In this document: positions 33 to 4,525 of the stretch, piece by piece
Numbering within the stretch: position 1 is the first letter of the stretch
How the letters are laid out: each line of letters begins with the position of its first letter
Virus record (IMG/VR): IMGVR_UViG_3300048914_000208
Span: 1 to 37,627 of that record
Reading direction: 5' to 3' (one strand)
Length of the DNA: 37,627 bases
DNA from: a virus
Notes under the pieces: generated by a model
Seen by the model: the letters and a program-made list of their open reading frames with translations, nothing else
Databases searched by the model: none
Told to the model about the DNA's origin: nothing
Translations under genes and position numbers: made by a program

Positions 33-112
33 CGCTGCTTAATCGAAATTTTACTCGGGATTGAAAAATGAGGGGGGGGGTATGAAATGGTTGGTTTTAA
101 AAATTGTTTGAT
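13..112. promoter_or_regulatory. Noncoding HNH-terS gap, candidate cos/packaging region
   Basis: On the closed circle this 100-bp gap separates the HNH endonuclease stop from the small-terminase start. It contains a run of nine G (72-80) and AT-rich sequence before terS. In many HNH/P27/TerL phages the packaging site lies here. The motif GGGGTCAAATCTCTA at the end of the HNH gene resembles DNA I recall at the same place in other phages. The location is inference; no cut site can be read from sequence alone. Confidence 0.4.
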
Positions 113-565
113 ATGAATGATAGTAAAATGAACATTGTGCACATGGGCCAGGGTAAAGATACTTTGGCGTGCATTGAAAAAGTACCGGCACACCTTGATG
201 CCGCTGCTAAAAAATGCTACAAAGAGGTTGGTAATTTTTTAGCGAAGATTGACCGCCTGCGTGAAACAAACCTGCATACCCTTGAAAGTTTTGCAACGGC
301 TTATAGCCAGTATGTATTTGCTTGTGGCGCAATAAACCGTAAAAACAAGAATGAATATGGCAGCGGCTATATACAAAAATTTGAGAGCGGCGCAAGCAAC
401 GTAAGCACTGAAGTTGTTTTGCGCGATAAGGCAACAGTAATAATGCTTAACTGTAGCAAATTGTTTGGCCTTGACCCAAAGAGCGAAAAAGAGCTAAAAG
501 GAATGGTAGACAGTGGCCAGCTGAATATGCTCGATGATTTTGAGCGAAACAGGTTAGCCCGATGA
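113..565 (+). CDS. terS: Terminase small subunit, P27 family
   Basis: A 150-aa protein that should bind the packaging site and load the large terminase. The N-terminal 'VPAHLDAAAKKCYKEV' and C-terminal 'LRDKATVIMLNCSKLFGLDP' follow the P27-family pattern: a 'P..L...A...W' start and an 'R......L..FGL.P' end around a helical core. A TTG nine bases upstream would extend the frame, but ATG at 113 is the better start; ATG at 128 is also possible. The stop overlaps the methyltransferase start (ATGA). It lies directly after the HNH gene on the circle, the usual HNH-TerS order, but is separated from terL by about 2.1 kb. Confidence 0.8.
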   Translation: MNDSKMNIVHMGQGKDTLACIEKVPAHLDAAAKKCYKEVGNFLAKIDRLRETNLHTLESFATAYSQYVFACGAINRKNKNEYGSGYIQKFESGASNVSTEVVLRDKATVIMLNCSKLFGLDPKSEKELKGMVDSGQLNMLDDFERNRLAR

Positions 566-1764
566 ATATGCCCAGGCTAAAACACATAAGCATGTTTAGC
601 GGCATAGGCGGGCCTGAGCTTGCTGCCGAATGGTGTGGCTGGGAAAATATAAGCCATACCGAATGGAACCCTTTTGGAAGGAATGTTTTACACTATTACT
701 GGCCGCAGGCCGACAGCCATGAAGATGCAACCAAAACAGACTACACTATTTACCGAGGAAGAGTTAACGTGCTTAGTGCCGGGTTCCCGTGCCAGGGGTT
801 TAGCCTCGCAGGGAAAAGACTTGGTACAGACGATGACCGCTACCACTGGCCAACGGTGCGCCGCGCTTATAATGAATGCCGACCCGATTGGGTTGTTTTC
901 GAAAATGTTACTGGGCTCCTCAGTATGGAGGATAAACAAGGCGTATGGCGCGATGTATTCGCTAAGGTGGAAGGCGGAAAAGTTATTCGTACTGCTGAAT
1001 GTGACTACTATGAAAAAGTATACACACGACAAGCAAAAATGCTCATCGGTACAATCCTTGAAGATATTGAAAACGACGGGTACCGGCCGCAGCTTTTTGT
1101 ACTTCCGGCTGCAAGTGTCGAAGCCCCGCATAAAAGGGAACGCATCTTTATTGTTGCCCACGCCAACAGTAATGGACCACATGGCGCCAAAGACGGACAA
1201 AGCGTGGGTAAAGGAGCAGGAAGTAACACGCCCGGGCAGGCAGCAACCTGCAAACCTACGCGATATCCCTTTCAGGGCGCCGGGCCTGCTACCGACACCA
1301 TCGGCATCGGAAATGTATACAAACGCTCCAGAAAGCGAAAGTTATGTAACCAAATCCGGTACGGTGCGCCGGAAAAATGCGGACGGCAGCAGCAGCCAAC
1401 TGGGATTAGTGGCATCGGCAATGAAAATGCTACCAACGCCATCCGCACAGGACGGCAAAAACAGTACGCTGCCTGGAAGCCAAAAGAACCGCGATACAGT
1501 GGTGGGGGCAATTTCGGAGATAGCGGCAACAACTGGGCAAACTTCCCAACTCAATCCCCGGTTTGTGATGGAAATGATGGGGTTTCCGCCGGACTGGACT
1601 TTGAAACCGTTTTTGAAGGCTACACAAAGCCCTTTACATGGGCCAAGTGGAGAAATGAAAGCATAAAAGCAGGCGGCAACGCGATTGTGCCGCAGGTTAT
1701 GTACCAAATTTTTAAAACTATTGATGAAGTGGCAGCAATGATGGGAAAATCAGATGGAAAGTAA
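562..1764 (+). CDS. DNA (cytosine-5) methyltransferase
   Basis: A 400-aa C5-cytosine methyltransferase that would modify phage DNA against host restriction. Motif I is FSGIGGPELAAE (about residues 14-25), motif IV is GFPCQGFSLAG with the catalytic Cys (about 74-84), motif VI is ENV, motif VIII is APHKRERIFIVA, and motif X is GGNAIVPQV near the C-terminus. The target-recognition region (about residues 205-340) is low in complexity, and its DNA also carries methyltransferase-like motifs in the next reading frame (see the 1148-1666 entry). There is no restriction enzyme nearby, so it is an orphan. It is translationally coupled to terS by ATGA and interrupts the terS-terL pair. Target specificity cannot be read. 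Confidence 0.9.
   Translation: MNMPRLKHISMFSGIGGPELAAEWCGWENISHTEWNPFGRNVLHYYWPQADSHEDATKTDYTIYRGRVNVLSAGFPCQGFSLAGKRLGTDDDRYHWPTVRRAYNECRPDWVVFENVTGLLSMEDKQGVWRDVFAKVEGGKVIRTAECDYYEKVYTRQAKMLIGTILEDIENDGYRPQLFVLPAASVEAPHKRERIFIVAHANSNGPHGAKDGQSVGKGAGSNTPGQAATCKPTRYPFQGAGPATDTIGIGNVYKRSRKRKLCNQIRYGAPEKCGRQQQPTGISGIGNENATNAIRTGRQKQYAAWKPKEPRYSGGGNFGDSGNNWANFPTQSPVCDGNDGVSAGLDFETVFEGYTKPFTWAKWRNESIKAGGNAIVPQVMYQIFKTIDEVAAMMGKSDGK
1148..1666 (+). other. Second-frame methyltransferase-like reading frame (overprint)
   Basis: An open frame, +1 relative to the methyltransferase, runs under its 3' half and ends at 1666. It reads LLLPTPTVMDHM (1148 on), later LLPTPSASEMY and MLPTPSAQDGKN, and ends with LNPRFVMEMMGFPPDWT (1550-1600). 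These strings resemble the C-terminal region of another class of phage C5-methyltransferase proteins, as I remember them. The main frame at the same bases gives IFIVAHANSNG and FPTQSPVCDGNDG, which are also family-typical. No start codon is evident close to the motif region, so expression would need frameshifting, internal initiation or a recombinant allele. It may be an evolutionary relic. Confidence 0.5.
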
Positions 1765-1906
1765 AACAGAATCAAACGGCTTTCATGCCTGCGGGCAGTA
1801 TTACAGGATGGGCAAGCCGGGTGTGCCTTATGTAGAGCAAATAAAGATGCTTTTGGTTGAAATAAGAGAAAACTATTTAAAACATAAAATGAACCATGAC
1901 ACCTGA
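1754..1906 (+). CDS. Small hypothetical protein (50 aa)
   Basis: The frame starts at ATG 1754 inside the 3' end of the methyltransferase gene and stops at TGA 1904-1906, overlapping the next start at 1896. The protein is mixed-charge with no membrane segment; it contains 'FHACGQYYRMGKPGVPYVEQIKMLL', quoted here only as the region of residues 10-33. Tight overlaps on both sides, filling what would otherwise be a 130-bp gap, are the main support. Function unknown. Confidence 0.55.
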   Translation: MESKTESNGFHACGQYYRMGKPGVPYVEQIKMLLVEIRENYLKHKMNHDT

Positions 1907-2093
1907 AGAATATTTAAAAACTACCAATTGCCCGGACTGCCATGCGGATGGCGGCATTTGTGAAGTGTGCTGGGCGATGGAAAACGATCCTGACCTTTTT
2001 ATTACAACCCCTGAACAATGGGAACAAATGGAAAAGGCCGCGGAATATGTGATTAAAAACGGCATTACGCCAAATCTTGACAGTATTTATTAA
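1896..2093 (+). CDS. Small CxxC...CxxC zinc-ribbon-like protein
   Basis: A 65-aa acidic protein with the pair C-P-D-C and C-E-V-C separated by six residues near the N-terminus (about residues 12-25), the spacing of a small zinc knuckle or rubredoxin-like ribbon. The rest is helical with no recognised domain. It overlaps the preceding small frame and lies in the run of inserts between the terminase subunits. Zinc binding is inferred from the cysteine spacing; role unknown. Confidence 0.65.
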   Translation: MTPEEYLKTTNCPDCHADGGICEVCWAMENDPDLFITTPEQWEQMEKAAEYVIKNGITPNLDSIY

Positions 2094-2110
2094 CCAACAA
2101 TTATAGAATT

Positions 2111-2671
2111 ATGTTTGATCCAATTAGTTACATTTTTAGTAAAAGAGCAGGGCGCTTGTTTGTGGCGTTGTATCATAAAGACCCATGCACCGATGGTACG
2201 GATGACAGCTGCGGGCGATATATGCGGGCACGCCATGGTGATGCCGGTGTTTTGGCTAAAATTGAGGAAGATTTTGTGTTTAACCTGAAGCAAAATTACT
2301 GGTTTTTCAGTAATGGAAGCCCAAAATTTACGGCTTCAGGGGTCCTTTTAAATATGTACCGCACTGCTTTGTGGATTTATTTTAAGCAGAACCGTAAAAA
2401 AGTGAACCTTTTTTTGTCAAAACACCTGGTAGATATACTGCATTTTGCCGAAAACCCTACCGATTGCATTGGCGATACAATTGAAAATAAATACGGTGCT
2501 GCTGGTTCTGATCTTAAACGAAGCCACGCCCGATTTGCATCAATAATATACGCTGATATTTTGCGTAAAACCCGAAAATGGTACCAGCATCCGTACTGGC
2601 ACTTAAACCACCTTCGCATCGAAATAAAACTTCTGCCAAAGCATAAATCTGACTTTGTATCTGTAAAATAA
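2111..2671 (+). CDS. Hypothetical protein (186 aa)
   Basis: I do not recognise a family. The protein is basic and aromatic-rich, with no signal peptide or clear membrane segment. It ends three bases before the terL start, so it is probably cotranscribed with packaging genes. Its middle (about residues 75-120) is rich in Lys, Leu and Tyr and could be helical. A role in packaging or modification is only a guess from position. Confidence 0.7.
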   Translation: MFDPISYIFSKRAGRLFVALYHKDPCTDGTDDSCGRYMRARHGDAGVLAKIEEDFVFNLKQNYWFFSNGSPKFTASGVLLNMYRTALWIYFKQNRKKVNLFLSKHLVDILHFAENPTDCIGDTIENKYGAAGSDLKRSHARFASIIYADILRKTRKWYQHPYWHLNHLRIEIKLLPKHKSDFVSVK

Positions 2672-2674
2672 CCT

Positions 2675-4525
2675 ATGAAAATAACCCCCGAAATCCTTGA
2701 ATCTGTACCGTTTCAGTATGCGCTTGATGTGCGTGAGGGGCGTGCCGTGGTGGGCAGGCGCATTATACAGGCGGTGGAGCGTTTTTGGCGGTGGGTTGAG
2801 GAAAGTGCGGGGTTACTGTATGAATATGAGGTGCCGGGCGCGGTGCTGTTGCCGGGTGTGCACCGCAATTTTTGGTTTGTGCCTAATCCCGGGCATAATG
2901 GTAAGGATTTTTACCTGGATCATGCGGCGGGCCTGCATGTGTTGTGGTTCTTTTCGGGGTGCCTTAACCATACAGTGGGTGCGCTCCAGGGTAAACCGTT
3001 TGTGCTGGCGCCCTTTCAGGCTTTTACCATGTACAACCTTTTTGCCTGGAAAAAAATGACGGGCAGTGTGCCGGTACGGGGCGATGATTTCCGGCGTATA
3101 AACTCGGTGTATGACAAGCGGGCCAAAAAGAACGGTAAGACAGCCGAAATGGCGGGCCTGGCGCTGTACATGATGAGTTATGACGAAGAGGCGGGCGCAC
3201 AGGTATATGTGGGCGCTACTAAAGAAGACCAGGCGCGCATTTGCTGGGGGCAGGCCAAAAGCTTTATTGACAGCCACCGGGCCAACCCGGTGCTGCGCCG
3301 GATGGGTTTCAGGACGCAGCAAAAAACGATCTTCTTTGACAGGACCGAAAGCAAGATGATGCCCCTGGGTGGTGACAGCAAAACGCAGGATGGCATTAAC
3401 ACGCACCTGGGTATTGTGGATGAATACCACGCGCATTCAGATGATTCGGTTAAGGAAAATATGGAATCATCGATGAGTATGCGCAGCCAGCCCCTACTCT
3501 ACCATATTACCACTGCCGGGCTTAATATACAAAGCCCGTGCAAGAATTATGAAGATGAGATGATCGAGGTGTTAGAGCAGCGCCACCCTAACGATGACCA
3601 CATTTGGGTAATGATCCATAACCTGGATGATGCCGATGACTGGGAAAACCCTGCAAACTGGATCAAGGCCAACCCGCTGCTGGGGCAGGGCCTTTCGATA
3701 GACTGGCTTATGAAGCGGTACAATGCTGCAAAGATATCGCCGCGCAAAGTGCCGGAATTTAAGACCAAAAGCCTCAATATGTGGGTAGATGCGCCCACGA
3801 TTTGGATTGAGAGCGAAATTTGGAAAAAGAACAAGCATAACCTGAGCAAAGAAGAGGTTTGGCAAAAGTTTGCGCAGTTTGGCGGGCATATGGGTGTCGA
3901 TTTGAGTATGACCACCGATATTACTGCTGTGGTAATGGTTAGCAATGCCGATGATGATGGCGACCGGTATATTGTGCCGTATTTGTTTTGCCCCGACCTG
4001 AATATTGACAAGCGCAGCAAAAACGACAACGTGCCGTATCGCTACTGGGCTTCGTGTCCGGAACAGTGGCTTATCGCTACCCCGGGCGATCAGATTGATT
4101 ATGAAATTGTGGAGGGGTATATTAAAGATTTGTACTGGCGGTACAATATTTTAAGCCTGGGTGCCGACAGCCACCAGTTTGTGCAGATGGGGCAAAACCT
4201 TATGAGCTCCAGTATTACGCTTAATTATGTGGGGCAAAGCATCATGGCGCTTTCGGCACCCACAAAAGAGTTTGAGCGCCTGGCGCGAAAGGGGTCGTTA
4301 AAGCATGATGGCAACCCGATACTGGGCTGGATGCTGGCGGGGTGCATTATTATTACCGATCCTAACGAGAATATGAAAATACACAAAGGGCGCAGCAACG
4401 CGGCGGGTAAAAAGCGCATTGACGGCATCCCGGCCACGATAAACGCCATTCATAACGGTATGGTGCCGGAATTTAACCCCGATGTGAGCGATTATGCCGA
4501 CCCGGATGTGGAATTTGTGTGTTAA
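2675..4525 (+). CDS. terL: Terminase large subunit (HK97-like)
   Basis: A 616-aa packaging ATPase and nuclease that should cut concatemers and pump DNA into the prohead. The Walker A-like loop is RAKKNGKT (about residues 149-156), and Walker B is LGIVDE followed by YHAH (about 245-254). The C-terminal RNase H-like nuclease begins at MGVDLSMTTDITAVVMV (about residue 407), with the first metal-binding Asp. The length matches the HK97/Terminase_1 class. It follows a 186-aa unknown gene by 3 bp, while its partner terS lies about 2.1 kb upstream. Confidence 0.95.
   Translation: MKITPEILESVPFQYALDVREGRAVVGRRIIQAVERFWRWVEESAGLLYEYEVPGAVLLPGVHRNFWFVPNPGHNGKDFYLDHAAGLHVLWFFSGCLNHTVGALQGKPFVLAPFQAFTMYNLFAWKKMTGSVPVRGDDFRRINSVYDKRAKKNGKTAEMAGLALYMMSYDEEAGAQVYVGATKEDQARICWGQAKSFIDSHRANPVLRRMGFRTQQKTIFFDRTESKMMPLGGDSKTQDGINTHLGIVDEYHAHSDDSVKENMESSMSMRSQPLLYHITTAGLNIQSPCKNYEDEMIEVLEQRHPNDDHIWVMIHNLDDADDWENPANWIKANPLLGQGLSIDWLMKRYNAAKISPRKVPEFKTKSLNMWVDAPTIWIESEIWKKNKHNLSKEEVWQKFAQFGGHMGVDLSMTTDITAVVMVSNADDDGDRYIVPYLFCPDLNIDKRSKNDNVPYRYWASCPEQWLIATPGDQIDYEIVEGYIKDLYWRYNILSLGADSHQFVQMGQNLMSSSITLNYVGQSIMALSAPTKEFERLARKGSLKHDGNPILGWMLAGCIIITDPNENMKIHKGRSNAAGKKRIDGIPATINAIHNGMVPEFNPDVSDYADPDVEFVC

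Follow-up and report, generated by a model that had tools for sequence, protein, structure and literature searches.

Overlapping reading frames in a phage C5-cytosine DNA methyltransferase gene probably encode the two subunits of a split enzyme

A phage gene for a C5-cytosine DNA methyltransferase, found in a stretch of viral DNA of 37,627 nt (IMG/VR record IMGVR_UViG_3300048914_000208, positions 1 to 37,627; hereafter the window), most likely encodes a two-subunit enzyme of the M.EcoHK31I kind in overlapping frames, judging from comparison with its relatives. Ribosomes starting at 562 would produce an alpha subunit (frame A) that binds the cofactor and contains the catalytic PCQ cysteine as well as motif VIII and the helix of motif X, and ribosomes starting internally, most likely at ATG 719, would produce a beta subunit (frame B) carrying the LPTP cassettes followed by motif IX. 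Alpha and beta would then assemble into one enzyme, and an LPTP cassette exchanged from gene to gene would alter which sequence is methylated. The original prediction, made from the letters of the window alone, had noticed family-typical motifs in two frames of this gene and had proposed overprinting, a family-wide frame switch, or frameshift-made alternative C-termini with different DNA specificity. The features discussed here are listed in Table 1.

Table 1. Coordinates of the two frames and of the frame B elements in the window
Feature	Positions	Strand	Evidence or frame A equivalent
Frame A, alpha-like subunit, C5-cytosine methyltransferase, 400 aa	562..1764	+	PF00145, phrog_363 and M.HhaI matches
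Frame B, beta-like subunit, 315 aa, +1 frame nested in A	719..1666	+	phrog_1008, conserved N-terminus, beyond-chance openness, purifying selection in relatives
Frame B repeat units 1 (from LPTP 1154) and 2 (from LPTP 1289)	1154..1429	+	Frame A equivalents VAHA, ATDT
Frame B repeat unit 3 (LPTPSAQDGKNSTLPGSQKNRDTVVGA...)	1430..1549	+	Frame A equivalent ATNAIRTG
Frame B motif IX-like stretch LNPRFVMEMMGFPPDWT	1550..1600	+	Invariant residues, distance to motif X

All of the strings on which the original prediction was based are present in the window: APHKRERIFIVAHANSNG, ATDTIGIG, ATNAIRTG and FPTQSPVCDGNDG in frame A, and LLLPTPTVMDHM, LLPTPSASEMY, MLPTPSAQDGKN and LNPRFVMEMMGFPPDWT in the +1 frame, which runs to a stop at 1666. 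As had been claimed, each LPTP lies under a frame A target motif (1154-1165, 1289-1300 and 1430-1441, one base past VAHA, ATDT and ATNA, respectively). The second frame extends beyond the interval first given for it (1148-1666) and is open for 337 codons. Of 20,000 shufflings of the synonymous codons of A, 4 produced an equally long open B frame and 19 produced three PTP peptides; the open +1 frame of the window and its three PTP peptides are unlikely to be there by chance. Among 80 relatives, synonymous shuffling gave a mean probability of 0.0066 per locus that B is open from motif IV to the motif IX-like stretch. In the region 104-4525 the gene is flanked by those for the terminase small subunit (phrog_83) and large subunit (phrog_9), and three small ORFs separate it from the latter.

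Both translations were searched against protein families. Frame A matches PF00145 (E 1.4e-31) and phrog_363 (E 9e-59), and contains motifs I (FSGIGG, residues 12-17), IV (PCQ, from 787), VI (ENV, from 901), VIII (APHKRER, 1123-1143) and X (GNAIVP, 1675-1692) in this order, which identifies it as a C5-cytosine DNA methyltransferase. The frame A family profile matches M.HhaI residues 12-176 (E 5e-32), the best HhaI match ending at residue 176, and the predicted fold of frame A also matches M.HhaI (E 5e-13). No motif IX is recognisable in frame A, which reads FPTQSPVCDGNDG... over the stretch where B carries its motif IX-like residues, and the chain thus falls short of a complete single-chain PF00145 enzyme. 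In the predicted structure of frame A, confidence is good for the catalytic core and for the C-terminal helix with motif X and very low for residues 212-352, overlapped by the B repeats, as is expected if another chain completes the fold.

The B translation matches phrog_1008 with E 7e-18 for 1100-1663 and E 7e-22 for 719-1663; B residues 109-294 align to positions 95-279 of 329, more than half of the family length. It also matches the methyltransferase genes of Paenibacillus phages (E 3e-20, about 43% identical over the matched region), and had no Pfam or NCBIfam match in the model search. The C-terminus of B consists of LNPRFVMEMMGFPPDWT and a short tail. L, M-G, P and W are invariant in this IX-like stretch among 23 diverse members, and its distance to motif X is 98 nt in the window, 68 nt in most relatives and 69 nt in an actinophage form in which both parts are fused in frame (L005). 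By its position, its pattern and this distance, the B stretch LNPRFVMEMMGFP is a candidate motif IX; in a PDB search the B profile and its 24-residue C-terminal profile matched no solved methyltransferase, and the identity thus received no statistical support from profiles. It might be argued that B is translated separately and has another role (as a regulator, an anti-restriction or an accessory protein), its frame merely overlapping the methyltransferase gene: the B profile matched no solved structure, and its tie to catalysis comes from sequence comparison. The predicted B structure was poor (pLDDT 52), too poor for a structure search. We consider this explanation unlikely, since B is found with A or fused to A in the loci examined in detail (some gammaproteobacterial hits being without a scorable pair), the motif IX-like stretch sits at the right place in B and is absent from A, and the fused actinophage forms place B between an A-type motif VIII and motif X.

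Next, we examined where translation of B may begin. By comparison with relatives the most likely start is ATG 719 (or 725), and we take ATG 719 as the probable start in this phage; earlier in-frame starts are present at TTG 674 (listed ORF 674-1666) and ATG 683. The N-terminus of B is conserved in relatives as M..Q.Q.SLFTEE.LTS. When 60 loci were aligned on motif IV, the last B-frame stops were found 59 nt upstream of PCQ, with no others from there through motif VIII, and ATG codons cluster at -65, -80 and -35. Shine-Dalgarno sites with 5-8 matching bases precede the B start in L143, L140, BcepC6B, Xenia, C72C1 and E. coli PT62; in L143, AGGAGGTG is located 7 nt before the B ATG. No Shine-Dalgarno site was seen before ATG 719 in the window. 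In Bacteroidota, Shine-Dalgarno sites are seldom used. The presence of such sites before B in several members whose hosts use them makes internal initiation more likely than frameshifting. A programmed +1 frameshift would join the catalytic part of A to the tail of B and give a hybrid chain with an alternative C-terminus; it fits a B frame that is +1 of A and spans the whole repeat region, and the in-frame fusions of actinophages indicate that a hybrid chain can exist. Such a chain would lack motif X, however, since B ends before or just inside that motif in relatives, and the start region of B lies far upstream of the repeats, with B-frame stops absent and avoided from a point about 58 nt ahead of motif IV, long before a shift would be required. 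The conserved N-terminal peptide and the own Shine-Dalgarno site of several relatives also argue against frameshifting, which has little room in E. coli PT62 with its A and B starts 4 nt apart. The frameshift-made C-termini of the original prediction are therefore disfavoured and in our estimate quite improbable, and a two-subunit enzyme appears to be the better reading of these sequences than alternative tails.

Phages and prophages from many bacterial groups share this overlapping arrangement. B is A+1 in 80 of 80 scored IMG/VR loci (L007-L088; two further loci reached the contig end and were left unscored) and in 34 of 34 scored loci from bacterial genomes, mostly Bacteroidota (L090-L124); these loci were mostly found with B queries, and the counts thus describe the layout given B, not the share of methyltransferases that have a B. 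Three-frame reading revealed the same layout in phages of Paenibacillus, Lactobacillaceae, Burkholderia, Salmonella, Xanthomonas and Pseudomonas, in one cyanophage, and in gammaproteobacterial genomes and E. coli prophages, so that the +1 relation in the pairs found spans Firmicutes, Proteobacteria and cyanobacterial phages. The matches in E. coli genomes are prophage-borne relatives. Matches to phrog_1008 were present in 13 of 369 sampled genomes of one class and in 3 of 296 of one phylum. Leaving aside loci cut by a contig end, A remains open along the whole B region in all but L004 and L035, where a stop interrupts A and B stays open; sequencing error and decay are both possible there. The exception to the +1 relation is found in actinophages, in which the catalytic part and the B-type C-terminus share one frame (Babsiella gp54 and Gudmit gp58). 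Of the frame switch proposed in the original prediction, examples were seen in this form only. Babsiella gp54 is an in-frame fusion of both families, as is Gudmit gp58 by reading. In both of these genes (Babsiella, L005; Gudmit, L134) LPTP units and a WMM-x-x-PAGWVT stretch are in frame with the catalytic part, and in Babsiella a +1 frame with LPTP is present in addition, annotated as gp55.

The extent of the overlap and its annotation vary among relatives. In the E. coli PT62 prophage (L160, 1898-2657) the start of A is at 1898 and that of B at 1902, each spanning about 740 nt, and the two frames are nearly co-extensive also in S9-5 (L135) and ABMM1 (L127). The latter two were considered as standalone B genes, which was ruled out when three-frame reading revealed a full A frame (PCQDI). 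Only A is annotated in Xenia and E. coli PT62, only B in S9-5 (as a methyltransferase in GenBank), and both frames in Bloom, Shelly and PhiXhv-28. In E. coli XYEH3314 (L162, 1989-3158) PGAP splits the methyltransferase into two incomplete pseudogenes, which may reflect either a broken gene or annotation confused by the overlap.

The nearest relatives of the window in the set have about 30-50% protein identity, and selection was therefore measured in relatives and not in the window itself. Differences at the three A codon positions were.147/.078/.418 in the region read in A only and.25/.088/.16 in the overlap over the repeats and motif IX (repeat-IX region); in the overlap, change at the A third positions slows down and the highest rate is found at the A first positions, the third positions of B. 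Among 36 disjoint pairs, transitions synonymous in A and changing B were found at 5.0% of opportunities in the repeat-IX region vs 16.4% in the A-only control, those changing A and silent in B at 9.9% vs 2.8%, and those silent in both frames at 29% in the repeat-IX region. With A-silent, B-altering changes suppressed and A-altering, B-silent changes well below 29%, both frames are constrained in this region, B more than A; there is purifying selection on both frames over the repeats and motif IX, and it is stronger on B. Between the B start and motif VIII the B residues are weakly constrained and B stops are strongly avoided (2-4% vs 17-23% in the control region). It could also be supposed that B is untranslated and owes its conservation to selection on A or to a constraint at the DNA level, as the DNA of recurrent A peptides such as VADT often gives LPTP when read one frame over. 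The speed of the codon positions, the suppression of A-silent, B-altering changes and the avoidance of B stops where A would permit them all speak against this, and we regard it as extremely improbable. The original prediction was to be given up if the frame B translation had no database hits and its substitution was relaxed across homologues. The translation has database matches, and substitution measured per frame across homologues is not relaxed in B. Overprinting is strongly supported, both frames being conserved protein families under purifying selection.

The LPTP cassettes of B probably form the target-recognition part of the enzyme. We cut 140 B proteins at LPTP-like sites and obtained 407 units. 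Of 547 between-locus unit pairs with at least 60% identity over 30 aa, 69 were at different ordinal positions from either end; such pair counts are inflated or split by locus redundancy and rough unit boundaries, and clear cases exist. Cluster sizes were not used, as single linkage chained 230 of the 407 units into one group, and the claim is based on pairwise matches. Unit 1 of the window corresponds to unit 2 of a Rufibacter locus (L090, 67% identity) and to unit 3 of a Sphingobacterium locus (L094, 66%), unit 2 has no relative among the B units of the set, and unit 3 recurs in Paenibacillus phage Xenia (L001), L008, L009, L091 and L093. By these sequence matches, cassettes appear to be shuffled between genes, the same units recurring at different positions.

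M.EcoHK31I is a naturally split C5 methyltransferase belonging to a YGGCCR restriction-modification system, and M.EaeI is split likewise. Compared by described motif layout, the window gene resembles it in having two predicted polypeptides and in the nesting of the small-subunit frame inside the large-subunit gene, which is seen in the window and its relatives (B is +1 in A) and which EcoHK31I reportedly has as well, its small subunit being encoded in an alternative frame inside the large one. The window gene differs in being a phage gene between terminase genes and in its B of 315 aa with several LPTP cassettes, compared with an EcoHK31I beta of about 176 aa. In M.EcoHK31I, motifs I-VIII and X are on the large polypeptide and motif IX is on the small one (PMC3404938), an arrangement that the window gene would match if the candidate stretch in B is indeed motif IX. 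The target-recognition domain predicted there is on the large subunit (PMC3404938), whereas the cassettes of the window are in B. M.AquI is another two-polypeptide C5 enzyme, but it is split inside the variable region with motifs IX and X both on the small subunit, in contrast to the window gene, which has X in frame A. The same A/B layout is found in phrog_1008 and the methyltransferase genes of Paenibacillus larvae Fernvirus phages. Their B is listed as 'g55 internal gene' in Shelly and, in Bloom, as a second methyltransferase CDS, with the overlap unexplained there; they differ in belonging to Firmicutes phages and in the divergence of B already given. The ShiLan element, an out-of-frame HNH endonuclease in mycobacteriophage methylases (PMC11855218), similarly hides in a second frame of a phage DNA methylase gene; it is an inserted homing element of patchy distribution, whereas the second frame of the window gene is conserved and covers the region of the repeats and motif IX. 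The split layout is thus already known from M.EcoHK31I, and in those parts of the open-licence literature on overlapping or out-of-frame methyltransferase genes that were searched we found no description of a family-wide overlap, its spread or its selection pattern.

Many phage methyltransferases appear to have the layout described for a rare enzyme of a restriction system. As a tentative generalization, which may well turn out to be too broad, phage C5 methyltransferases across several bacterial phyla could as a rule be two-subunit enzymes in overlapping frames whose specificity evolves by shuffling of LPTP cassettes; the cassettes would have to remain readable in both frames, and one DNA exchange would change both subunits together. 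Gene catalogues and annotation usually keep one of the two frames. If the two-subunit reading is true, single-chain cloning or testing of such genes could give a false 'inactive' result, and a specificity prediction based only on frame A would overlook the probable DNA-reading part. A long, deeply conserved overlapping gene pair with selection measurable in both frames would also be useful for studying the origin and persistence of overlapping genes.
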